Positions 48,648 to 64,000 of a stretch of 64,000 nt of DNA are shown here, piece by piece; position 1 is the stretch's first letter, and every line of letters starts with the position of its first letter. The position numbers and the translations under genes are program-made. Origin of the DNA: an uncultured Erysipelotrichaceae bacterium (GTDB lineage: Bacteria; Bacillota_I; Bacilli_A; RFN20; CAG-826); contig CACZZG010000001.1 of the NCBI GenBank assembly GCA_902785645.1, forward strand, positions 81,224 to 145,223, given 5' to 3'. The notes beneath the pieces were generated by a model. It did no database searches and was not told the origin of the DNA. It saw only the letters and a program-made list of their open reading frames with translations.

Positions 48648-48773
48648 ATGAAGTTTGTAATTGTTGGAAATGGTTTTGATTTACATTGTGGATTGAAAAG
48701 TAGTTTTAAGGGTTTCTTCTTTCAAAAAATATTGAACAAGAAGACCCATTTGTTTTTAAACATCTATGATTAA
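48648..48773 (+). pseudogene. AbiH N-terminal fragment (41 codons)
   Basis: FVIVGNGFDLHCGLKSSF matches the start of AbiH-type abortive-infection proteins (typical pattern I-x-GNGFD-x2-HGL-x-(T/S)-x-(Y/F)). It stops at TAA 48771 after 41 residues, whereas AbiH is several hundred aa. It has a proper SD (GGAGG) and its last eight bases overlap the start of the reverse transcriptase gene, which has no SD of its own. It may therefore now act as a leader peptide that drives translation of the latter. Confidence 0.6.
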
Positions 48774-51700
48774 TGGAACAATAACAGTCGATGACGTTAA
48801 GAATGCCTATCGCAAATTTAAGCACTATGTTTATTATTCTCCAAACTTGCATTATTTAAAGAAAAGAATTGCGGAGTTTGAAGAAGATGAATGTGCGATG
48901 GATACATCATTTAATAATATTTGCAACGGCTTGACAAAAGGTTTTAACTCCTATTTTGATGAATTGCTTCCGAAAATTTCTTTTAAAGTTTTTCCAAAAA
49001 CGATTTTGAATTCTAATGAAAGCAAAGATGAGTCTGTAAAATATAGAACCATTTTAGATAATAACGAAACAAATGATAGTGTAATTATTGGTAAAATTAA
49101 TTTCTTTATTGACATGCCTATAGAATTGTTTGTCGTTGATACTTTGTGGTCTTGTTTTGTGGCGTCGGCACATTGTTCTAAAAAATCACTTAAATATTGC
49201 AACGGCAACGTTATTCATGAAGACCTGCTATCTTTAGATAGAAGAAAGAATTTAAAAGGTAGAATTCACTTTAAATCGTTGCCTTTTTATAAAAAATATT
49301 ACGAACAATACGTATCATGGAAAAACGATGCCATTGAACACATTGAAACAAGATACAATCGTAAAAAGAATAGTGCCTTGCTCGCTTTAGATTTTTCCAA
49401 TTTCTTTTATTCTGTTTCTTTGGACTTTGATAAGTTGAAAAAAGAATTAATTGAAGACGACCAAGATTATATAAATTATCTATACTTACACATAATTGCT
49501 AAAAGAATATATGAGAGATATACGCAAGTTTTGAAACCGTATTTCAGTGCTATTCACGAAAAACAGATAATAATTCCAATCGGTTTAGTTAGTTCTGGCT
49601 TATTGGCAAATATGTACTTCGAAAAATATGATAACCAATTAAAAGAACTGGATTGCGTTGTCTATTATAAGAGATATGTCGATGACATGCTCTTTGTTTT
49701 GGACATAGATAAGTTACCAATAGAGTATTCACAAGACAGCCCACCTAACAAAATGCTAATCAAAACAATTCTAACAAAATATTTAAATATTTTTGATATT
49801 GAAGCTGACAATCTATTTAGGGTCAAAGGTGAAAAATATTTATCCATCAAAAATGATAAGGTTAAGTTTATTTATGTCGGTAAAGAAGGCACCACAGCGA
49901 TAATCGAAAAATTAAAAGAGGAGAATTTCAGAGCTAGCGAGCATAATTTATTTCCAACAATCATTTCCGATTTGAACAAATTCTCAGCAAGCATGTACAA
50001 AGATTCAGAATCTTTAAAACTTAGGGACGCGAATGAAGTAGTCGTTGATGTCAAGAAAATGACATCTCTAATTCAAAGTGTTTTGTTCTCTTTGATGGGC
50101 GGCTTATCTAACGATGTTATTTTGTCTAAAGAGCAACTTGAAAAGTTTAAAAAACAAATTAAAACTATTTTTCCTAATGATATAATCATTTCTTTGAAAA
50201 ATAGATGGGATAAATTATTGTTCTTTTTTGATGTGTTGTTCAATGGTTCTGATTTTTTTGAAAAGAAAATTAGGAATTCCATTAAGAGCCTCAAAAAACC
50301 GCATGGTAAAAAAACATCATGGTTTGCCAGCGGATACAAAGACGAAAAATATCTACTGAATAATATGAAAGATGCTCTTAACGAAACGTTGGATATCGCT
50401 CTTTCTAGCAACAGGGCGCTAGTTGGAAAGACATCGGGCAATAAGCTTGCTATGCAAATTCGACATTCAAATATGTTTGACTATACATGTATTTCAATGC
50501 CGCTGTTGAATTATTATGATTTTAAAGAAGAAATTAATTTATTTGCTACGAATCAAGAAAAATTATTTAATGTTTCGAGTCGAGGGTGCTCACTTAATAA
50601 TTTTAAAATACAATACTCCCCTGTTTTCATCCATTTTAGTCAGTTTGAATATATCCAATTATTAATCAACTGCAGTCAAATTAATAATGTTAGTTTTTTA
50701 TTTAACCTTTTGAATAGATACAAGAAAGAAGTTTTTCCGCTTTTTTCTTCAAGTACATTTGATTGTGTAAAAATTAAAGATATTACCCCAAAAAATACTA
50801 AAAATTATAAGTTGGTAGAGATTGAAATGCCACAGATATATAAAAACATGCCAACTGTTGATAGTTATATTGGACTTGCAAATATCAATATGAAAAACCA
50901 TAAACTCACAAATGATGTTGAAATTGACGGTGAAACTAAGACCATAATGGATTTTTCTCAATATGGATGCTTAGATTTTAAAAAGGATTTAATATATTTG
51001 TTAACTCACAATAGGAATCTCAATAAAAGTTCAAGAAAAGATGATGAGACTGAATCCGATCAAAAAGTTAGGCCAGCCAAGTATTTGGTTTTTCCTGAAA
51101 CTTTTTTAGAAATTGAGTGGCTTCCTCTTTTAGAAAAATATGCTAGAAGAACCATGACTACTGTTGTGACTGGAATTAAATACTTTAAGCAAAAGAAGAG
51201 AGTATTTAATTTACAGGCCACAATTATCCCCTTTGTTAAAGACGATTTTTATAGAAATTCAATCGTAGTTTTAAGAGAAAAAAACGATTATGCTCCTTAT
51301 GAAAAAACTATCATTGATAATTCGGGATATAATTCTTCAAATGCCAAAAAGCCAATATATTATAGGTTTATTTCTCAGGACGCTTCATATTTTACGTCTT
51401 TTGTTTGCTATGAATTGACGGATATTTTTGCTAGAGCCCTTCTAAGAGATAGGGTTGATTTTGTTGTTGCTTCAGAGTTTAATTACGACATTAACTACTT
51501 TTCCAATATAATTGAATCTACGTCTCGCGAGTTATTTTCATATGTAGCTCAAGTTAATAGTTCGGATGCTGGAGACACTCGTTTAATTGCTCCATATCAT
51601 AATTACTACAAAACAATTGCCTCTATTTCTGGCGGGGAACGTTCATTTGTGCATGTTGGTAAAATAAACATATCCAATCTACGCAATTATTTGCTTCAAT

Positions 51701-51807
51701 ACAAGAGTCTTGATGTTTCACCGTTTGATTATTCATCTTTAAACAAAGATGAAAAAACAAAAATGTTTAAAAAACCTTCTGCTAGAAGCAAATTAACAAA
51801 GCATTAA
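48766..51807 (+). CDS. Defence-associated reverse transcriptase with C-terminal nitrilase domain (DRT1/UG1-like)
   Basis: 1013 aa. Reverse transcriptase motifs: LALDFSNFFYS with D209 (motif A), PIGLVSSGLLAN from P271 (motif B) and YVDD at 304-307 (motif C), all intact. A linker of about 400 residues follows. The C-terminal third (about 770-960) is a carbon-nitrogen hydrolase (nitrilase) domain with FPE (E778), a Lys in APYEKTI (K847) and CYE (C881), spaced as in the Glu-Lys-Cys triad. RT plus nitrilase defines the UG1 group, DRT type 1, known to protect against phage. No SD; coupled to the AbiH fragment. Cytoplasmic. Confidence 0.88.
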   Translation: MINGTITVDDVKNAYRKFKHYVYYSPNLHYLKKRIAEFEEDECAMDTSFNNICNGLTKGFNSYFDELLPKISFKVFPKTILNSNESKDESVKYRTILDNNETNDSVIIGKINFFIDMPIELFVVDTLWSCFVASAHCSKKSLKYCNGNVIHEDLLSLDRRKNLKGRIHFKSLPFYKKYYEQYVSWKNDAIEHIETRYNRKKNSALLALDFSNFFYSVSLDFDKLKKELIEDDQDYINYLYLHIIAKRIYERYTQVLKPYFSAIHEKQIIIPIGLVSSGLLANMYFEKYDNQLKELDCVVYYKRYVDDMLFVLDIDKLPIEYSQDSPPNKMLIKTILTKYLNIFDIEADNLFRVKGEKYLSIKNDKVKFIYVGKEGTTAIIEKLKEENFRASEHNLFPTIISDLNKFSASMYKDSESLKLRDANEVVVDVKKMTSLIQSVLFSLMGGLSNDVILSKEQLEKFKKQIKTIFPNDIIISLKNRWDKLLFFFDVLFNGSDFFEKKIRNSIKSLKKPHGKKTSWFASGYKDEKYLLNNMKDALNETLDIALSSNRALVGKTSGNKLAMQIRHSNMFDYTCISMPLLNYYDFKEEINLFATNQEKLFNVSSRGCSLNNFKIQYSPVFIHFSQFEYIQLLINCSQINNVSFLFNLLNRYKKEVFPLFSSSTFDCVKIKDITPKNTKNYKLVEIEMPQIYKNMPTVDSYIGLANINMKNHKLTNDVEIDGETKTIMDFSQYGCLDFKKDLIYLLTHNRNLNKSSRKDDETESDQKVRPAKYLVFPETFLEIEWLPLLEKYARRTMTTVVTGIKYFKQKKRVFNLQATIIPFVKDDFYRNSIVVLREKNDYAPYEKTIIDNSGYNSSNAKKPIYYRFISQDASYFTSFVCYELTDIFARALLRDRVDFVVASEFNYDINYFSNIIESTSRELFSYVAQVNSSDAGDTRLIAPYHNYYKTIASISGGERSFVHVGKINISNLRNYLLQYKSLDVSPFDYSSLNKDEKTKMFKKPSARSKLTKH

Positions 51808-52289: not shown

Positions 52290-52438
52290 CTTACAGCAGT
52301 TTTTGCCAACAATCCCTCGGCTATGTAATAAAAGAGTGTTTATATGGCGTTTAAAGCGGAAAAACTTAAAAAAATATCAAATTATTACGCGTTAACTTGC
52401 ATTTAACTACTAAAATCGATAGTATAGAATCAGAAAAT

Positions 52439-53683
52439 ATGAAAAAGAAACTATTTAAAAGAGAAAATTATTTATCTAAGATTAGGCCTTTTTATCATGA
52501 AACAGATTTGATTAAGGTTATCACAGGAATTCGTAGATGTGGGAAATCCTCCATTATGGAAATGATTGCCGATGAATTGGTGGAAGGCGGAGTTGATTCT
52601 GAAAACATTATTTATATCGATTTAGATAAAAGAGGATATAAAAGCATAAAGACTCCGGATGAGTTGGAATCTCTTATTGATACAATGTCTAAAGGAATCA
52701 ATGGCGTTAAATATCTATTTGTAGATGAAATACAAAATGTTAAAAACTTTGAAAGAATGATAAATGCTTTTAGAGAAGAAGATGATTATTCAATTTTTAT
52801 TACTGGAAGCAATTCCTATTTATTAAGCGGTGAATTAATGACGCATCTTACGGGTCGTTACCTAGAATTTGAAGCGTTCACACTAAATTTTGAAGAATAT
52901 CTTAAAATGAAGGAATTCTATAAAATGCCGATCGATCAAAACCCTTCTATTGAACTTGATAAATATTTATTAGAAGGTGGGTTTCCTAGAACCTTATTTT
53001 TACCAGACCTAGCATCTAAAAGATTATATATTCATGAAGTAGTGGATGAAATCTTTAAAAAGGATATTAAAAAAAGAGTCAAGATAAGGAAAACCGCTGT
53101 TTTCAATTTGGTTAGAGACTACATCATCAATAATTATGGAGCGACAACCAGCATCAACAATATAGTTAAAGAGTTGAACAAAAATGGAGCCTCTGTTCGC
53201 TTTGAAACTGTCTCAAAATATGTTCAACATCTAATGGATGCTAAGATTATTTATGAATGCGATAGATTCGATATGAAATCTAAAAATATGTTTCAAAACG
53301 AAAAGAAATATTATTTGGCTGATTTGTCTTTAACAATGTTTACAAATCCTGATAGTAGAATCAATTATGGACCCGCTCTTGAAAACGTTGTTTATCTATA
53401 CGCTAAGTCCAAGAGATATGAAGTATCCGTTGGGAGAATCGGCAAACTAGAATGTGATTTTATCTTAAAAGACATTAATCTTAACTATTGTTATGTTCAA
53501 GTCGCGTACACTATTTTGGATAGCGAAAAAACAGAGAATAGAGAATATGCTCCTTTGGAGAAGATTCAAGATAATTTCCCAAAATTTGTGTTAACAACAG
53601 ATTTCTTAATTCAAAAAAGAAAAGGAATCATACATGATAATTTGATGTTGTTTATGAAAAACGATAAGATTTTTACTAGATAG
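52439..53683 (+). CDS. AAA_14/DUF4143 ATPase (first copy)
   Basis: 414 aa. Walker A GIRRCGKSS (30-38), Walker B YLFVDEIQN (about 97-105), sensor-like ITGSNSYLLSGE and GRYLEF, then a C-terminal DUF4143 domain ending in an LECDFILKD / YVQVAYTI segment like a degenerate nuclease fold. The family is widespread and mostly uncharacterised. ATG 52439 chosen: relatives start with the KREnYL block; TAGAAT (52425-52430) is eight bases upstream, so the mRNA may be leaderless. A paralogue lies at 56131. Confidence 0.85.
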   Translation: MKKKLFKRENYLSKIRPFYHETDLIKVITGIRRCGKSSIMEMIADELVEGGVDSENIIYIDLDKRGYKSIKTPDELESLIDTMSKGINGVKYLFVDEIQNVKNFERMINAFREEDDYSIFITGSNSYLLSGELMTHLTGRYLEFEAFTLNFEEYLKMKEFYKMPIDQNPSIELDKYLLEGGFPRTLFLPDLASKRLYIHEVVDEIFKKDIKKRVKIRKTAVFNLVRDYIINNYGATTSINNIVKELNKNGASVRFETVSKYVQHLMDAKIIYECDRFDMKSKNMFQNEKKYYLADLSLTMFTNPDSRINYGPALENVVYLYAKSKRYEVSVGRIGKLECDFILKDINLNYCYVQVAYTILDSEKTENREYAPLEKIQDNFPKFVLTTDFLIQKRKGIIHDNLMLFMKNDKIFTR

Positions 53684-53712
53684 TAAAAGGAGATAGTAAA
53701 AGGAGAGTGCTA

Positions 53713-55689
53713 ATGAGAAGAAATTTTTCAATGAATATTAATGGCAAAGTCAATAATTATCGATTAACAAAAAATGATTCACTTATGCCTTTATTTGAAG
53801 CAATTGCTAATTCTATTTTTTCAATTAACCAAAGAAAAGAGACTGATTCTGATTTCAAAGGAAAAATAGAAATTGAATTATTGAGAGAAAATGTTTTGTT
53901 TGATGATTACAAGGATAGTCCAATTGCTCAATTTATTGTTAAAGACAATGGCGTTGGCTTCACCGATGAAAACATGGATTCCTTTATGACCTCAGATTCT
54001 CGTCTAAAAGAGAAATATGGTGGAAAAGGAAACGGAAGGTTTTCATGGCTTAAGGTTTTTAATGTTGTTGAAGTTGAAAGCATTTACAAAGATGATAACA
54101 AGTTCTATAAGAGATCATTTGCTTTTGGTAAAAGCACAGATATCATAGAGGATTCTATTTCTGAAATTGGTGAAAACGAGTTGATGACCACAATCAAAAT
54201 GATTGGCATAAATGATGATTTCAAAAAGCATATTCCTACAAGCATCTTAACCATAGTCACAAAAACAATAGAACACTTTGTAGTTTGCTTATTATCTGAT
54301 AATTGTCCTAATATTTATCTAATCGACGAAGAAAACAATATTTGTATAAACGACAAATTTAGAAATGATTATTTTGGTGATTCCAAGAAGGACACTTTTG
54401 TTATAGATAATTATTCTTTTAATATTACTCATTTGAAAATTAAGAGTCCTGAGTTTGGACAAAATAAGTTGTATTATTGTGCAAACGACAGATTGGTTAA
54501 GAGCAAAAAAATAGATGAAAACATCACTGATCTTGACGAGGCTATTTTTGCAAAGGAAGGTTTCTGGTATCTAGGCATATTAACGGGTGATTATTTAGAT
54601 CAAAACGTTGATTATAATAGACAATCTTTTTCAATTGATGAGGATAGTGAATTCGATATATCTATAAATAAAATGACAAGAGAAGCTGTATCCAAAGCCA
54701 AAGTGTTTTTGGCTGGTTACTTAGAAAAAGCAAGAGCAGAAAAAATGAAAAGAGTAACTGAATATGCAACCAAACAAGCTCCTGAATATAGATATCTGCT
54801 CAATAGAAAGAAAGATGAAATTAGCAAGCTAAAGCCGGGGCTTAGTGATGAAGAACTTGATGACTCACTATTTAAGATTAAAAGAGATTTAGAAAAAGAG
54901 GTAAAACAAGACTGCGACGTCGTTCTTCAGAAAATAGAAGATAACGGTTTAGATGATTCTTTTGAACAAGAGCTTATTGAAACAATTAGCAAAGTTTCAG
55001 AAATGAACAAATCAGCTCTAACTAATTACATAGCTAAAAGAAAAATTATCATTGATTTTTTTAAGAAAGCACTCAGAAAGAAAGATAATGGAAAATATGA
55101 GCTTGAAAAAGTTGTTCATAATTTAATTTTTCCAATGAAAACGACAAGCGAGTCATGTAATTATGAAAATCACAATCTGTGGCTAATTGATGAAAAACTA
55201 TCATATTCTGTTTATGTTGCATCAGATATTGCACTAGGGAATGACCCAGAAAACAATAGACCCGATATTCTTGTTTGCGATGGCCCTGTTGTTATTTGTG
55301 ATGACGATGAATCTACATTTTATAATACGATTTCAATTTTCGAAATTAAAAGACCTCAAAGAGATGATTATACAATCGAGGACAACCCTTATACGCAATT
55401 GATTAAATATCTTGAAAAAATACAAAAAGGAGATGCTTTAGATAAAAATGGTAGGCCAATAAGAGTTGGCAATAATACGCAATATTTTCTTTATGCTGTT
55501 TGTGATATAACTTCTACTCTTAAGAACGTGATTAAAATGCTAGGCTTTACCTATTTTGATAATGAAAAAGGAGCTTTTTTGTTCTCAAAAAATTATAACG
55601 CATACATTGAACTAATATCGTTTGACAAAATGCTGAGTGATTCCGAATTGCGTAATAAGGTATTCTTTAAAAAGCTTGGTATCGAATAG
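53713..55689 (+). CDS. GHKL (Hsp90-like) ATPase with probable PD-(D/E)xK nuclease end
   Basis: 658 aa. N-terminal GHKL ATP-binding fold: N-box EAIANSI (29-35), DNGVGF (78-83) and GGKGNGRFS (103-111). A helical, charged middle (about 330-470) follows. The C-terminal part has RPDILV (D518) and FEIKRP (E544, K546), the spacing of a PD-(D/E)xK nuclease. ATG 53713 is seven bases after AGGAG. It starts 29 bases after the first DUF4143 ATPase. ATP-gated nuclease action in defence is inferred; I know no exact characterised match. Confidence 0.7.
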   Translation: MRRNFSMNINGKVNNYRLTKNDSLMPLFEAIANSIFSINQRKETDSDFKGKIEIELLRENVLFDDYKDSPIAQFIVKDNGVGFTDENMDSFMTSDSRLKEKYGGKGNGRFSWLKVFNVVEVESIYKDDNKFYKRSFAFGKSTDIIEDSISEIGENELMTTIKMIGINDDFKKHIPTSILTIVTKTIEHFVVCLLSDNCPNIYLIDEENNICINDKFRNDYFGDSKKDTFVIDNYSFNITHLKIKSPEFGQNKLYYCANDRLVKSKKIDENITDLDEAIFAKEGFWYLGILTGDYLDQNVDYNRQSFSIDEDSEFDISINKMTREAVSKAKVFLAGYLEKARAEKMKRVTEYATKQAPEYRYLLNRKKDEISKLKPGLSDEELDDSLFKIKRDLEKEVKQDCDVVLQKIEDNGLDDSFEQELIETISKVSEMNKSALTNYIAKRKIIIDFFKKALRKKDNGKYELEKVVHNLIFPMKTTSESCNYENHNLWLIDEKLSYSVYVASDIALGNDPENNRPDILVCDGPVVICDDDESTFYNTISIFEIKRPQRDDYTIEDNPYTQLIKYLEKIQKGDALDKNGRPIRVGNNTQYFLYAVCDITSTLKNVIKMLGFTYFDNEKGAFLFSKNYNAYIELISFDKMLSDSELRNKVFFKKLGIE

Positions 55690-56084
55690 TCTTTAATTAA
55701 CTTGTTTCAAATCCGCTTATATTTAAATAACTATAAAAATGCCGGCCCCTTTTAATTTTCAAACGGGATTGATATAGTCGGTGAATAATGTTCATATTTT
55801 TTTGCGTTCATTATTACTTGTTTTTATGCTATTTGGATTTATATAGTCGGGTCAGCTTTCACACCAACCATGTGTTTTGTACCATTATCGGTGTATCTCG
55901 CAATTAAAACACTATATAGAATAAAAAGTATATGGGCTTAATACACCTTTAAGTGGGATTGTCACAGTCGGAATAATTTGTAGCGAAAAATAAATAGGGA
56001 TTACTACAGTACGTTAAAGACACAATTTGACTAAACAGTTTTACCAAATCTATGAAAAGTGTTTAGTAATAGTAAACAATTTGA
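55690..56084. other. Spacer with four 17-base repeats
   Basis: No gene seen. Four direct 17-base elements with consensus GGGATTNNYAYAGTCGG lie at 55765-55781, 55834-55850, 55955-55971 and 55997-56013 (the last the most diverged). Starts are 69, 121 and 42 bases apart. Confidence 0.6.
55765..56013 (+). repeat. Four-copy 17-base direct repeat cluster
   Basis: Copies: GGGATTGATATAGTCGG, TGGATTTATATAGTCGG, GGGATTGTCACAGTCGG, GGGATTACTACAGTACG. Sequences between copies are unrelated. Could be protein-binding sites controlling 56131 or the decayed remains of an array. Confidence 0.55.
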
Positions 56085-56113
56085 TTGACTTAAGTCATAG
56101 TGTTTAGTATTAT
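56085..56113 (+). promoter_or_regulatory. Promoter with palindromic operator before the second ATPase
   Basis: -35 TTGACT (56085-56090), 17-base spacer, -10 TATTAT (56108-56113). The perfect palindrome TGACTTAAGTCA (56086-56097) covers the -35. AGTGTTTAGTA(A/T)TA occurs at 56058-56071 and again at 56099-56112 over the -10. This looks like a repressed promoter. Confidence 0.65.
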
Positions 56114-56130
56114 TTAGATGGGCGACGATA

Positions 56131-57324
56131 ATGAATAATATTATTAAAAGAGAAAAGTATTTAAAACAGATTAGAGAATTCTATGATAGTGACTTAATCA
56201 AGGTCATTACAGGAATTAGAAGATCTGGTAAGTCCATTATTCTTCAAGAAATAATGGAAGAGATAAAAAATAAATCAAATAATGTTATTTATTTAAACTT
56301 CGAAAAAACAGCGGATATCTCTAAAGCGGGTACCGCTTCTTTACTAGTTCAATATATTCAAGATAATCGCAAAGAAGACAAATGTTATGTTTTTCTTGAT
56401 GAAGTGCAAGAAGTGGAAGATTGGCAAGTTGCGGTTAAAGATTTAAGAATAGATAATTGTTCTGTTTTTATTACTGGAAGTAATTCTAAACTTTTATCAG
56501 GTGAGATAACCAAGTATTTAAGTGGCCGCTTTGTCTCTTTTAGAGTGAGACCATTTGTATATAAAGAAATCCTTGAATATTCAAAGATTACAGGTAAAGT
56601 AGTGGATTCTAATAATTATTTGGTTTGGGGCGGTTTTCCTGGAAGACTAGAAGCAGCCACTATTGAAGGTACCATTCAATATTTAAATGATTTAGATTCT
56701 ACAATTGTTTTAAATGATTTAATCAACAGATATAAGATTAAAAAACAAGCCATTTTCATCAAGATTGTTAATTATATTCTTATTAATAATGCACGTATTT
56801 TTTCTATTAGATCAATTCATAAATACATTAAAAATGATTACCCAGAGATTTCTACCGCAACAGTGGCGAAGTATGTTGATTACCTTAAGCAAGCTTATAT
56901 TATTGATGAAATACCTCAGTATTCCACTAAAGCTAAAAGAGAATTATCTTTCTATGGAAAAATATATAATTCCGATGTTGCTTTGAATTCAATAAGAGTT
57001 AACGATGGCCGCTATGACCTTGACCATAATTTAGAGAATATCGTGTATAACGAGTTGATTTATATGGGATATGAATTATCGGTTTATTCTAACAATGGAA
57101 AAGAAATTGATTTTAGAGCCACTAAAGATGGAAAAACTTATTTTATCCAAGTGGCTTATAGTGTAGCCGATGCTAAGGCATACGATAGAGAATTTGATGC
57201 TTTTAAGAACATGGATAATTCCAATCAAAAAATCCTTATTACTACAGACCCAATTGATTATTCAACGAGTTCCGTCAAACATATTAAGTTTCAAGATTTT
57301 TTATTAATAAACGAAATAGATTAG
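56131..57324 (+). CDS. AAA_14/DUF4143 ATPase (second copy)
   Basis: 397 aa. Walker A GIRRSGKS (28-35), Walker B VFLDEVQEV (about 89-97), ITGSNSKLLSGE, GGFPGRLEA, and C-terminal DUF4143 with GKEIDFRATKDGKTYFIQVA, an intact D-x-FxVQ-type nuclease-like core. Clearly paralogous to 52439-53683. It has its own regulated promoter and no good SD. The two copies flank the GHKL-nuclease gene. Confidence 0.87.
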   Translation: MNNIIKREKYLKQIREFYDSDLIKVITGIRRSGKSIILQEIMEEIKNKSNNVIYLNFEKTADISKAGTASLLVQYIQDNRKEDKCYVFLDEVQEVEDWQVAVKDLRIDNCSVFITGSNSKLLSGEITKYLSGRFVSFRVRPFVYKEILEYSKITGKVVDSNNYLVWGGFPGRLEAATIEGTIQYLNDLDSTIVLNDLINRYKIKKQAIFIKIVNYILINNARIFSIRSIHKYIKNDYPEISTATVAKYVDYLKQAYIIDEIPQYSTKAKRELSFYGKIYNSDVALNSIRVNDGRYDLDHNLENIVYNELIYMGYELSVYSNNGKEIDFRATKDGKTYFIQVAYSVADAKAYDREFDAFKNMDNSNQKILITTDPIDYSTSSVKHIKFQDFLLINEID

Positions 57325-57358
57325 TTATATATCAAAAATAGCAACAATTAGCTGATTG

Positions 57359-57380
57359 ATGTGCTATTATTTAAGCACAT
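57359..57380. repeat. Inverted repeat between ATPase and methyltransferase genes
   Basis: ATGTGCT / AGCACAT, 7 bp with an 8-base loop, followed by the palindrome AACAATTGTT. Terminator-like position but no T tail; may be an operator for the methyltransferase. Confidence 0.4.
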
Positions 57381-57425
57381 TAACAATTGTTATTGTAAGC
57401 ACTGTATATTCAAAGACTTTAGTAA

Positions 57426-58337
57426 ATGAAACCAAAAATTCACCTTATTAGTTTTTTAGATAATGACATCCAATTATTTAATGATGATTGTATGAATGTT
57501 TTTTCCAATATTCCAAATAACTCCATTTCACTTATAGTCACTTCACCGCCATATTGTATGGGAAAAGAATACGAGAATATTACAGATGATATCAATTCAT
57601 TTATAAATTTAAATAGTAAAGTTATAAAGGAATCTATTCGCGTTTTAAAAAATGGTGGTAGTCTTTGCTGGCAAACCGGTTTCCATGTTAAAAACTCCAT
57701 ATCAATTCCGCTCGATATTATTATTTATAATATTGTTGAAAAGATTAACAGAGAACTCGAAGATAAAGATAAATTAATTCTCCATAATAGAATTGTTTGG
57801 ACATTTGGACATGGTTTGAATTCAGAAAAGAGATTCAGTGGAAGATACGAAACCATATTATGGTTTACGAAAGGAAATGAGTATTCTTTTGATTTGGATT
57901 CGATTAGAATTCCTCAAAAGTATCCAGGAAAAAAATATTCTCGCGGCAAAAAAGCTGGAGAATATAGTGGCAATCCATTAGGAAAGAATCCATCCGATGT
58001 TTGGGATATACCGAATGTTAAAGCCAATCATGTTGAGAAAACATCTCATCCGTGCCAATTTCCTGTTGCTATACCACAACGCCTTATAAAAGCACTTACT
58101 AAACCTGGTGATTGGGTCATGGATCCGTTTTTAGGTAGTGGAACGACTGCTGTTGCTGCGGTTTTGGAAAAAAGAAGGTTTATCGGTTCAGAAATAAAAA
58201 AAGAATATATTGAAATATGTAAAGAAAGAATTGAAAAAGCGATTGACGGTAGCATATTAGTGAGACCTGACGTCCCTGTTTCAGAGCCAGATTTAAAACA
58301 AAAAGTTGCACAAAAGCCAAAGGAGTTTAAATGGTGA
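57426..58337 (+). CDS. Site-specific DNA methyltransferase (N6-adenine or N4-cytosine type)
   Basis: 303 aa. Catalytic motif IV TSPPY at residues 39-43 precedes the SAM-binding motif I DPFLGSGTT at 233-241, i.e. the beta-type motif order. SPPY is seen in both N4-cytosine and N6-adenine enzymes, so the base is undecided. No SD. Overlaps the DGQHR gene by seven bases. No conventional restriction endonuclease adjoins it. Confidence 0.92.
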   Translation: MKPKIHLISFLDNDIQLFNDDCMNVFSNIPNNSISLIVTSPPYCMGKEYENITDDINSFINLNSKVIKESIRVLKNGGSLCWQTGFHVKNSISIPLDIIIYNIVEKINRELEDKDKLILHNRIVWTFGHGLNSEKRFSGRYETILWFTKGNEYSFDLDSIRIPQKYPGKKYSRGKKAGEYSGNPLGKNPSDVWDIPNVKANHVEKTSHPCQFPVAIPQRLIKALTKPGDWVMDPFLGSGTTAVAAVLEKRRFIGSEIKKEYIEICKERIEKAIDGSILVRPDVPVSEPDLKQKVAQKPKEFKW

Positions 58338-60133
58338 AAAAATCAAACAAACCAAAGCTGACAAAAGAACAAATTGCCGAGAACAAAAAGAGGAAAGATT
58401 TTTCAAATCAAATTGAAAAGATTTTTGTTAATTCTGGATTTGAAAAACTGAATGTCAAAAACTGGCAATTTATGCTAGGCGGCAAAAACAACGAACTTGA
58501 TCATTGCTTTATTTATGAGAATGTTTTGATTGTTTGTGAAGACACTTTAAAATTTTTAAAAGGCGAAGAAAAGAATAATCCTGGTGGACAAATTAATCGC
58601 ACCAAGCATAAGTCGGAAAAAGAAGAAACGGCTCGTATTATTTTGGATGATGAAAAGAAAGAATTTTATTCTTTACTATCTCAACATTGTCCTGAAAGTA
58701 AGTATTTACCTAAATATGAGTATCAAGAGATAAAGATGTTTTATCTATATTTTGAATATGGAGTAACCAAATATTCAAATGAAGATATAGAAAGATATAG
58801 TCATTTATCATTTATTGATAAATCGACTTTTAGCTATTTTTCAATAATGTCTAATAGTATAAAAAGATCGTTTATTTACGAATTATTTAAATATTTTAAT
58901 TTAAATAGAAATGACGTCGGAAAGCCCAACCCTTTTGGTGGTGGAAACATTCAAAACCTTCAAACCTCAATAATATATCCAAAAACTATTACCGGTTATA
59001 CTAACGGAGTAAGAATGGTTTCATTTATGATGAGGCCTATTGATCTTATCCAAAATAGTTATGTTTTAAGAAAAGATGGATGGAAACAAGATTTTGATAT
59101 GTATCAAAGACTCGTGACCGCCAAACGAATAAAAAGCGTAAGAGAATATGTGGCAAATTGCAAAACAGCCTTTTTGAATAATATAATAGTAACTCTTCCA
59201 GATTCTGTGGTTTTCTTTAAAAAAGAAGGAGAAGAAACAAAAATGGTTCCACTGGAGAGTATTGTTCAGTTTGATAAAGACATTATTATGCAAATTCCAC
59301 TAGATTATAATTCGATAGGAATTATTGATGGACAACATCGTGTTTACGCATATTATGAGGATGATTCCGCAAATGAAACAGAACAAAAAATAGCAAAACT
59401 TAGGGAGGAATTGAACTTGCTGGTTACTGGTATTATTTACCCAAAAACCGGACCACTAAAAGAACAATTTGCCAGAAGAAGATTTGAAAGTGAAATATTT
59501 GTAACAATTAATAAAAATGCTAAGGCGGTTGACGCCGATACACTCATACAAGTTCAAGCAATAATGAATCCAACATCAGGGGAAGCCATTTCTAGAAAGG
59601 TTATTGAATTGCTAAATAATAGAGACACATTTAAAAATATGTTTCAACTATCTAAGACTGATGATGCTCCAATTAAGACGGCATCAATTATTCAGTACGC
59701 ATTATCGAGTCTGCTTGTTGCGAAAAACGCACCCACATCTCTCTACATGTATTGGCTTAAAAAAACTGGGCATAGTGATGATTATGTTCTCGAAAAGGAT
59801 TGTGATATAAAAGAATATGTTAATTATTGTGCGCTTTCGTTAGAAACATATTTTAAAGCAATTAAAAGCAGGTTCTTAAGTTATTGGAACAAAGAATCGA
59901 AACTTCTCAAAGTGATATCTTTGAATGCTTTTATCATTGCCTTTAGAGAAACTTTGTTGCACACAAACGGACCAAGGGATTACACATTTTATTTTAATGC
60001 TTTTTCGTCATTTACTTTAGATTTTGGCAAAGATAACAACAATTTCCCGTACGCTGGTGCTCAATACAGCAAGTTTGCCAAAGCATTGCTTATTCCAGAA
60101 ATTGAAAAGTATAATCGAAAAGTTAGCATTTAG
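58331..60133 (+). CDS. DGQHR-domain protein (DndB-like) paired with the methyltransferase
   Basis: 600 aa. The DGQHR signature is complete at residues 333-337 (GIIDGQHRVYAYY), followed by EIFVTINKNAKAVD as in DndB-like proteins. Near the N-terminus, ELDHCFIYENVLIVCED (about 55-71) resembles the core of a restriction-type nuclease fold, though the usual E-x-K Lys is replaced. DndB regulates DNA phosphorothioation; other DGQHR proteins accompany other DNA-modification genes. Overlap with the methyltransferase gene implies a joint function. Confidence 0.82.
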   Translation: MVKKSNKPKLTKEQIAENKKRKDFSNQIEKIFVNSGFEKLNVKNWQFMLGGKNNELDHCFIYENVLIVCEDTLKFLKGEEKNNPGGQINRTKHKSEKEETARIILDDEKKEFYSLLSQHCPESKYLPKYEYQEIKMFYLYFEYGVTKYSNEDIERYSHLSFIDKSTFSYFSIMSNSIKRSFIYELFKYFNLNRNDVGKPNPFGGGNIQNLQTSIIYPKTITGYTNGVRMVSFMMRPIDLIQNSYVLRKDGWKQDFDMYQRLVTAKRIKSVREYVANCKTAFLNNIIVTLPDSVVFFKKEGEETKMVPLESIVQFDKDIIMQIPLDYNSIGIIDGQHRVYAYYEDDSANETEQKIAKLREELNLLVTGIIYPKTGPLKEQFARRRFESEIFVTINKNAKAVDADTLIQVQAIMNPTSGEAISRKVIELLNNRDTFKNMFQLSKTDDAPIKTASIIQYALSSLLVAKNAPTSLYMYWLKKTGHSDDYVLEKDCDIKEYVNYCALSLETYFKAIKSRFLSYWNKESKLLKVISLNAFIIAFRETLLHTNGPRDYTFYFNAFSSFTLDFGKDNNNFPYAGAQYSKFAKALLIPEIEKYNRKVSI

Positions 60134-60548: not shown

Positions 60549-61154
60549 ATGACTAATAGGGAATTACTGGATCAAGCTATCGCCGCATGCGAAAGATTAA
60601 AGAATACTGAGTATCACATTACCATAGGTAAAAACAATAACGAGACTCAGATTATTTTATCATTTCCAACAGATAGTTTTCACCACATTATCGGTTTTCA
60701 TAAGACAAAAGACGTGAACTTTTTGCATAGCGATGATCGTAGCAGAGAAAGAATCTATGAGATAGTCTTAAATAATACAAATAACATTCGCGATGCAATC
60801 GCCAGTTCTATTTTTATAGATAAGATGATTCCGCGATTAACCACAATCATTAAGCTTGAAGAACTTCTCGATAACAACAAAGAGACTTATTATTCCAAAT
60901 CCAATTATTATAGCGATTTTAAAGATATTGACTATGATTTCGTGTTTCACGTTAAAGATGAAGATTTCTTTATGTCTTTTTACTTTATTAAAGAAACCGG
61001 AACTTCTGTTCAAGATAAATATGTTATGGTGTCAACATTTGAAAAGGAAGAACCAAGAGGCCATTGTCGTAGGCCACATACATTATTAAAGAAAACAAAG
61101 GTTAATAAGGTTGGTGGAACGGCTACAATAATATTTGATTTTAATAACAAATAA
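60549..61154 (+). CDS. PBECR4-like nuclease-domain protein (predicted RNase toxin)
   Basis: 201 aa. FPTDSFHHIIGFHKTKDV (about residues 39-56) with RERIYEIVLN resembles the PBECR4 domain of the barnase-EndoU-colicin-RelE nuclease superfamily, found in phage and mobile-element toxins. Conserved His residues and C-terminal RGHCRRPH could be catalytic. No SD; transcription must pass the terminator directly upstream, as in type III toxin-antitoxin loci, or start inside it. No protein antitoxin adjoins. Family call is by pattern and should be treated as tentative. Confidence 0.6.
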   Translation: MTNRELLDQAIAACERLKNTEYHITIGKNNNETQIILSFPTDSFHHIIGFHKTKDVNFLHSDDRSRERIYEIVLNNTNNIRDAIASSIFIDKMIPRLTTIIKLEELLDNNKETYYSKSNYYSDFKDIDYDFVFHVKDEDFFMSFYFIKETGTSVQDKYVMVSTFEKEEPRGHCRRPHTLLKKTKVNKVGGTATIIFDFNNK

Positions 61155-62848: not shown

Positions 62849-64000
62849 ATGAAAACCGAGTATCAGTTTTATTACGACGAAAGTGGTCATAGTAGAAAGC
62901 TTACTGAAAAATCTATAACGGCTGATAACTATGATGACTTTTTTGTGTCGGTTATTGTTGGTATAAATAATAAACAAACAGAATCTTTGAATAAGGACTA
63001 TTTTTTGTTTGAGGAAAAATACAAATATTATTACGAAATTGATGAATTAAAAAGCACAATATTCAGCGACAAAAAATACAAATACGGTTTTAAGAGTTTC
63101 AAACAAATAGATTTGGAAGCAATTAACGATTTCTTTAATTTACTAATTAAATATAATTTGCTAATCTACATTTCTGTTCAAAACAAGATTGAATATTTAA
63201 TCGATCAGCTTCTAAGAGCTTATGAAAACAATTACCTGGTTGATGCTGACGCTATAAGATACACGGTGACGAAAGCCATTACTGTTTATAGACCAAAAAA
63301 GGTATTGTCCTCTATATATCAAGGGGATTCTTTTGCGACAGAATTAAAATCTTTCTTAAATGAAAGAATTGCCACCAATGGTGACTTGAAACTTAAAGAA
63401 TGGGAAAATCTCGCTTTTGAACAAACTTGTTTTCTAATTGATAAAAACAAAGAATTGTCTTTTGTTGAATGGGATTATACCCATCCTTTTGTTGGCTTTT
63501 CTTTATTTTTAAAAGAACACAATATTAAAACTAAAGAGATAATAATTGACAAAGAAGGAAGTGGAAACACTTTAAAAGCCGCAAAGGAATGTGGATTTAA
63601 AGAATCTTGTGAAAAGGATTCTAAGGATGAGGTAGGAATTAGAATCGCTGACATGTTGGCGGGCTTAATTAATGGTTTCATAAAATCCATTTTGGTTTCC
63701 ACTAGCTATATTGGCGAAAAAGAACCGACTAAAAAGTTAATTGATAAAAAATGGTTTGAGTTAAATGATTTGCAATGTAATTGTTATGCAAAAATGCAAA
63801 CGATAATAATTGAACAAAACGAGAGTTGGTATAAGACTTATTGTTCCTCCTATTCAGATCCTTTTTTGTTCCTTATATGCCTTTTAAACTATGTATCACA
63901 GAGCGGAATGGATTATTTAACAAAAAACACAAACATGAATAATGAATACCTCAACACGTATGTCTGTTCTTGTCTTCAAAAACGTTTCGAGTTTATGAGA
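62849..64000 (+). CDS. DUF3800 domain protein, 3' end cut by window edge
   Basis: 384 codons are open from ATG 62849 to the end. Begins FYYDESGHSRK, the metal-binding start (YxDESG) of DUF3800, an RNase H-like predicted nuclease family; acidic residues follow in IIDKEGSGNT and RIADMLAGL (about 235-275). DUF3800 genes recur in phage-defence islands. The protein continues beyond the canonical domain. No SD and no clear promoter, so it probably depends on 61986. Confidence 0.78.
   Translation, partial: MKTEYQFYYDESGHSRKLTEKSITADNYDDFFVSVIVGINNKQTESLNKDYFLFEEKYKYYYEIDELKSTIFSDKKYKYGFKSFKQIDLEAINDFFNLLIKYNLLIYISVQNKIEYLIDQLLRAYENNYLVDADAIRYTVTKAITVYRPKKVLSSIYQGDSFATELKSFLNERIATNGDLKLKEWENLAFEQTCFLIDKNKELSFVEWDYTHPFVGFSLFLKEHNIKTKEIIIDKEGSGNTLKAAKECGFKESCEKDSKDEVGIRIADMLAGLINGFIKSILVSTSYIGEKEPTKKLIDKKWFELNDLQCNCYAKMQTIIIEQNESWYKTYCSSYSDPFLFLICLLNYVSQSGMDYLTKNTNMNNEYLNTYVCSCLQKRFEFMR

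Follow-up and report, generated by a model that had tools for sequence, protein, structure and literature searches.

The DNA analysed here (the window, 64,000 nucleotides from an uncultured Erysipelotrichaceae bacterium) encodes a DNA methyltransferase and, overlapping it, a large protein with a DGQHR domain, and we consider it probable that this gene pair is a form of restriction-modification defence not described before. The two open reading frames (ORFs) lie exactly where a preliminary description of this DNA had placed them; they and all further features of the pair given below are on the + strand. The first gene (57426..58337) encodes a 303-amino-acid methyltransferase of the N6_N4_Mtase family (PF01555, E 2.9e-57) with the beta-class order of motifs, motif IV (SPPY, at residue 40) preceding motif I (DPFLGSG, at residue 233), and M.RsrI is among its nearest solved structures. 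SPPY is commonly associated with N4-cytosine methylation, and DPPY with N6-adenine methylation. The second gene (58331..60133), whose reading frame overlaps the first by 7 nucleotides (58331..58337), encodes a 600-amino-acid protein in which a predicted PD-(D/E)XK-like nuclease is fused to a ParB-like DGQHR domain, as indicated by the TIGR03187 model and an AlphaFold2 model. A candidate ribosome-binding site of this gene, AAGGAG (58320..58325), is located 5 nucleotides before the second ATG and was recognized by its match to the consensus. A terminator-like hairpin, identified by pattern match, stands at 57356..57383 between an upstream AAA gene and the pair. A promoter scan returned no more predictions than shuffled sequence (26 vs 26.0). 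PADLOC reports a type II methyltransferase and a weak resemblance of the DGQHR protein to DpdB, and does not recognize the pair as a whole.

The ParB/Srx-like DGQHR domain spans residues ~217-399 (58979..59527). It scores 76.0 bits with TIGR03187, above the curated cut-off of 58.85, and VIA-align matches it to ParB, Noc and PadC with Z scores of 5.4-6.1. A 2015 study names a QR pair, DGQHR and FxxxN as the motifs of such domains and relates them to DUF262 and the ParB/Srx fold (PMC4619093). All three motifs are present. We counted residue conservation over 43 distinct proteins, three of which are without the N-terminal region, and found Q259/R260 (in Y258-Q259-R260) in 42/42 sequences, DGQHR itself (residues 333-337, 59327..59341) in 42/42 and N394 of FxxxN in 40/40; F390 of the latter motif is invariant in 33 members, and R271 and R358 are each conserved in 42/42. 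The cut-offs of the DpdB equivalog (34.4 bits, cut-off 300) and of DGQHR_dnd_1 were missed, no Pfam match to DUF262 plus HNH (DUF1524), the hallmark of SspE, DndI and GmrSD, was obtained in 33 members, and PHROGs had no family for the three DGQHR members tried. The remainder of the protein (59528..60130) is mostly helical in the predicted model. Binding of ATP and GTP is reported for a DndB-like protein in a 2025 survey (PMC12704722), and the arginine of DGQQR is described as required for hydrolysis of nucleoside triphosphates (NTPs) and for defence in DndI and SspE (PMC11662687, PMC13251355).

The predicted nuclease domain occupies residues ~20-176 (58388..58858). AlphaFold2 modelled the whole protein (33 sequences) with a mean predicted local distance difference test score (pLDDT) of 87.6 and a predicted template modelling score (pTM) of 0.86, and the N-terminal domain alone (32 sequences) with a pLDDT of 92.7 and a pTM of 0.88. 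The domain model consists of a helix, beta hairpins, a helix and a strand (H12-34, E46-62, E65-72, H86-107, E135-142), which corresponds to the alpha-beta-beta-beta-alpha-beta core of the PD-(D/E)XK fold, with VIA-align Z scores of 8-9.3. Its top matches are AF1548 (1y88, Z 9.3), the BspD6I nickase (8.3), the BspD6I small subunit (8.1), FokI (8.0) and XisH (7.9), followed by BstEII, SgrAI, PspGI, BsaWI, EcoT38I, Card1/Can2, McrBC, Hjc, Shedu and HamA; many of these structural matches are restriction enzymes, and the absence of a protein from the VIA-align results was not taken as absence of kinship. PD-(D/E)XK proteins dominate these matches. The model thus supports a PD-(D/E)XK fold, nuclease-like, for this region. 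The preliminary description had proposed a restriction-nuclease-like block at this position, and the predicted fold supports it even though no Pfam model covers the block in any of 33 members.

Within the domain, several candidate active-site residues are nearly invariant. D57 (58499..58501), a candidate metal-binding residue, is found in 39/40 sequences; E70 and T72 (58538..58546), in the place of the usual E-x-K, in 40/40 each; and H93 and K97 (58607..58621), on the next helix, in 40/40 and 39/41, respectively. The resulting pattern reads [E/D]-x-D-x12-E-x-T, with H-x3-K on the helix that comes next, and N64 is conserved in 40/40. These positions (D57, E70, T72, H93 and K97) are near invariant although the mean column identity of the domain is 30%, and they include the aspartate and the glutamate of a PD-(D/E)XK active site. 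That T72 stands where lysine is usual follows from a second, unrelated type of DGQHR fusion (L075, L011), which has D..E-C-K/R at the same place. K97 may act as a relocated catalytic lysine, substituting for the one missing from the strand. Such an arrangement would fit some viral PD-D/ExK endonucleases, in which the lysine is reported to be supplied from a helix and not from the strand (PMC4909276).

In order to determine whether the two genes belong together, we gathered relatives using no query other than the DGQHR protein. They came from 5/392 genomes of the window's phylum (its own included), one phage record and three plasmid records, with a further 34 loci from genome contigs and five from viral contigs; the genome contigs gave no match when scanned with the single protein, and an alignment query yielded their loci. 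The plasmid search matched four records, one of which, pNL1 (L011), carries the other fusion and was left out. The 48 loci contain five duplicates, leaving 43 distinct ones; in four of them the sequence starts within the gene or shortly ahead of it, so that upstream DNA is available for 39. A methyltransferase lies directly upstream on the same strand in 35/39 loci, with gaps of -80 to +25 nucleotides between mechanically assigned starts; it adjoins the DGQHR gene or is one gene away in 38/39, and is found within 5 kb in 39/39. The four exceptions to the usual layout are L007 (convergent and abutting), L010 (upstream, with a BglII-type gene in between), L018 (divergent, 130 nucleotides) and L035 (4.5 kb away). 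In one of the four truncated loci (L047), a methyltransferase-like gene follows 71 nucleotides downstream. When the flanking ORFs were clustered, the DGQHR family was represented in 42 loci, the methyltransferase in 39, and any other family in at most three. In L012 the DGQHR protein is 66% identical to that of the window, yet its immediate neighbors are different. Since no other neighbor family is shared by more than three loci and the surroundings of such a close relative differ, the pair appears to move alone, as a stand-alone cassette. On the DGQHR tree its named carriers fall into nine phyla, eight bacterial and one archaeal, in addition to plasmids and phages; in the Akkermansia phage (L007) the pair adjoins an integrase gene. 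Linkage of this kind supports the earlier suggestion that the two proteins form a unit, and a methyltransferase adjoining a separate nuclease gene is a trait of type II restriction-modification systems, the nuclease being assigned here by predicted fold.

Several of these loci show individual features. BglII-family genes accompany the same type of methyltransferase in L010 (E 2.5e-18) and in L035 and L069 (E 3e-5 and 24.2 bits, slightly below the cut-off of 26). L010:4425-6523 holds such a gene directly after the methyltransferase and then the predicted DGQHR nuclease, and in L069:11836-16235 a BglII-family gene directly after the methyltransferase is followed by an SNF2 helicase and then by a convergent DGQHR gene. 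A 140-amino-acid helix-turn-helix protein is encoded just upstream of the methyltransferase at L019:4617-5039 (the same gene occurs in L005), as in C-protein controlled restriction systems. In the plasmid table, a DGQHR gene of the pair's family (L009:5875-7701) is labelled as the lmrP efflux pump, which looks like a false call.

For comparison, we assembled 24 distinct other DGQHR proteins from searches with the DGQHR family model, which gave any match in 14/392 genomes of the phylum and 17/289 genomes of a second class. Carriers of the pair are counted in these numbers; L056 (stop inside), L061 (fragment), L062 (DUF262-like) and L063 (false hit) are left out of the counts. The N-terminal block is present in 0/24 of these proteins, and none (0/24) has a directly adjacent N6/N4 methyltransferase. 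Any methyltransferase is nearby in 2/24, namely in L053 (N6/N4 type, ~580 nucleotides away past another ORF) and L075 (overlapping, D12 type), and 6/24 adjoin an SGGKDS gene of the PAPS-reductase type. Methyltransferase linkage is therefore 38/39 with the block vs 2/24 without it (Fisher p 1e-13, uncorrected for relatedness). The preliminary description had named DGQHR homologues without the block and without a link to methyltransferases as evidence against its reading. This check proved informative: DGQHR homologues that lack the block do exist and mostly have no methyltransferase beside them, whereas the proteins with the block do have methyltransferases.

These searches also revealed a second, independent fusion of PD-(D/E)XK (Card1-like, E 4.8e-5) and DGQHR domains, ~800 amino acids long, at L075:727-3890, L011:5479-7788 (pNL1) and L097:3887-6247. 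In L075, from the class of G393, it overlaps the D12 methyltransferase by 4 nucleotides, and in pNL1 and the Agrobacterium plasmid (L097) it is encoded near another DGQHR protein and a radical SAM protein.

The identity of the methyltransferase is less constant than its presence. The 38 partner methyltransferases form two sequence clusters of 27 and 11, the first of which includes three shorter ones with DPPY. On the DGQHR tree (36 rows, incomplete rows excluded, 35 of them carrying a label for methyltransferase subtype), exchange of METHYLTRANSFERASES is evident, as the subtype labels need at least 7 changes, and DGQHR proteins that are 58-63% identical can have different subtypes. Within the clusters, the distances of both proteins correlate (r 0.58, n 24, and r 0.90, n 11; 0/2000 permutations each). 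The conserved feature is thus "a methyltransferase", which fits protection of self.

We regard it as likely that the pair is a two-gene restriction-modification system in which the nuclease carries its own ParB/DGQHR NTP switch. Starting from the gene pair, the predicted folds, the invariant candidate residues and the linkage across phyla, we infer the following course for methylation, cleavage, NTP use and the direction in which methylation acts. The methyltransferase would mark host DNA at a specific sequence, and the DGQHR protein would bind DNA and act as the restriction enzyme. Its ParB-like module would bind, and probably hydrolyse, NTP and report the methylation state, a role proposed from DndI and SspE. 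The nuclease would thereby let go of self DNA, or be kept silent on it, and the N-terminal PD-(D/E)XK domain would cut incoming DNA without the mark. The nearest working model is DndI, for which a modification-stimulated ATPase is described as freeing the protein from self DNA (PMC11662687). A more specific version, which we think rather unlikely, replaces the helicase motor by a ParB-type nucleotide clamp: the protein would load at an unmethylated site, enter an NTP-bound, DNA-embracing state that can slide and cut when it encounters another complex or an obstacle, and methylation would stimulate NTP hydrolysis and release.

Several observations weigh against a two-gene restriction-modification system. 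The canonical E-x-K lysine is replaced in every sequence, and the predicted nuclease could be weak or dead. A sequence-profile search of the PDB with the N-terminal block gave a best E of 0.15, with Can2 at 1.2; Foldseek gave weak E-values (0.015 at best for the domain and 0.061 at best for the whole protein), and VIA-align Z scores of 8-9 are little above the 7-8 that are typical of this tool for models without a clear match. What carries the case for the fold is therefore the combination of consistent matches, topology and motif. The DndB model PF14072 scored 25.5 bits and missed its gathering cut-off of 29.1. In L041 the methyltransferase is frameshifted and the DGQHR frame is open, which conflicts with a strict rule of cutting unmarked DNA; the frameshift may be a sequencing error, or a different enzyme may supply the protection. 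The opposite case is L020, whose methyltransferase frame is open and whose DGQHR gene contains a stop. The methyltransferase closest to the DGQHR gene of L035 could be the partner of the neighboring BglII-like gene.

Among the alternatives, it is quite unlikely that the pair combines modification with control, the DGQHR protein being a DndB-like limiter of the methyltransferase whose N-terminal domain merely binds DNA. This would agree with the threonine in place of the E-x-K lysine and with reports on the DGQHR protein DndB, which is described as repressing, in an ATP-dependent manner, the modification operon to which it belongs (PMC12704722, PMC10853773). Against it, the positions expected of a metal-dependent nuclease are near invariant across nine phyla, and the block is missing from the other DGQHR proteins, those next to SGGKDS genes among them. 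The DGQHR gene is also located downstream of the methyltransferase, whose subtype has been repeatedly exchanged. Of the two options raised earlier, modification plus cleavage is accordingly the better one, and the view that the locus is without a restriction enzyme is probably wrong, as the DGQHR protein itself looks like a nuclease in the predicted model.

We assign a low probability to modification-dependent attack, in which the nuclease would cut methylated DNA, either marked on entry by the methyltransferase or bearing a foreign mark (type IV or Pgl-like logic). The ParB-type DGQQR nuclease BrxU is reportedly modification-dependent, but type IV enzymes are not known to be tied to a methyltransferase gene, whereas one lies within 5 kb in all 39 informative loci. 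The same dependence has been described for GmrSD, also a ParB-type DGQQR nuclease (PMC4619093), and SspE has been described as activated by its mark; a methyltransferase in the same operon would, on the other hand, turn host DNA into a target. That the N-terminal domain acts on RNA, or as a suicide effector, and not as a restriction enzyme is very improbable: its fold neighbors include the Card1/Can2 effectors and RNA-cutting viral endonucleases, some with helix-borne lysines, but the pairing with a DNA methyltransferase is constant and Pfam matched no sensor domain besides DGQHR.

The pair is located in a defence island. Upstream of it are a UG5-nitrilase defence reverse transcriptase (DRT), nitrilase-like in its C-terminal part (48766-51807), two AAA_14/DUF4143 ATPases (PADLOC PDC-S01, 52397-53683 and 56131-57324) and, flanked by these, a GHKL protein whose C-terminus weakly matches DUF6826 (53707-55689); downstream are a PBECR4 nuclease-like protein (60549-61154) and a DUF3800 protein (62849-64000). 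The notion that the pair is part of a larger system with the upstream GHKL and AAA genes is hardly credible, for although these genes stand side by side on one strand (52397-60133) in an island with the reverse transcriptase, and an AAA gene is also matched in the flank of L012, the AAA proteins match that locus only, which is the sole recurrence of an island gene outside the pair in the flanks that were scanned, and between the upstream genes and the pair there are the hairpin and a gap. Help from the upstream GHKL protein, once suggested, is not supported either, as no relative of that protein turned up when the flanks of the other loci were scanned and the gene at 56131-57324 and the hairpin lie in between. 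A GHKL-like protein with a DNSIDSY motif is encoded beside the DGQHR gene in L023 and L036 (Bacteroidota) and does not match that of the window.

The host genome encodes one DGQHR protein, the methyltransferase of the pair and a second methyltransferase frame of 658 amino acids, with one further match below the cut-off. Its assembly (G000, 88% complete) contains 0 matches to the PAPS-reductase-type family PF01507 and no detected DpdA, which lends no support to the phosphorothioate or deazaguanine link once proposed. GATC, with 111 occurrences observed vs 229.6 expected, shows the strongest depletion of all palindromic tetramers in the window (1-64000). As a target it was suggested by the BglII-type neighbors, and it was rejected because genomes without the system are depleted too. 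The observed-to-expected ratio is 0.40-0.75 in 6/8 genomes of the same family with no detected system (the other two, with GC contents of 0.49 and 0.61, are not depleted), 0.61 in G121, where no system was found and which belongs to the same genus as the carrier G045, and 0.44-0.78 in five carriers. An approximately twofold depletion of GATC characterizes most low-GC genomes of the lineage, with or without the system.

If the proposed function is correct, the pair adds a widely spread, unannotated restriction-modification family, accounts for one role of DGQHR proteins beyond DNA that carries phosphorothioate or deazaguanine, and would be a case in which base methylation is read by the ParB-type NTP switch, which until now is known for the sensing of phosphorothioates; the invariant candidate residues offer clean point mutants. 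In the open-access literature we found no description of a methyltransferase paired with a PD-(D/E)XK-DGQHR protein.

Among known systems, SspE and DndI of the phosphorothioate systems resemble the pair in that a ParB-like DGQ(Q/H)R domain is fused to a nuclease and coupled with a DNA-modifying activity. They have DUF262 and a C-terminal HNH domain, whereas the window protein has the DGQHR domain (TIGR03187) and an N-terminal PD-(D/E)XK-like domain, and modification here falls to a single methyltransferase, so that the logic is comparable and the parts are different. The type IV enzymes GmrSD and BrxU likewise combine a ParB-like NTPase module with a nuclease and occur in defence islands, but their nuclease is HNH, they have no cognate methyltransferase and they act on modified DNA. 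DndB and DpdB share the DGQHR domain; they are shorter (~350-430 amino acids), have no N-terminal nuclease block and in several cases stand beside dndC-type genes. The second DGQHR fusion (L075, L011, L097) has the same order of domains, PD-(D/E)XK and then DGQHR, but it carries the canonical D..E-C-K/R motif, does not match the profile of the window's N-terminal block and has no constant methyltransferase partner, none being listed beside it in L011 or L097. Ordinary type II restriction-modification systems, finally, also consist of a separate adjoining methyltransferase and PD-(D/E)XK protein, and BglII-type genes accompany the same type of methyltransferase; the pair differs from them in its 600-amino-acid predicted nuclease with a ParB-like domain, in an E-x-T with the lysine on the next helix and in a predicted dependence on NTP.

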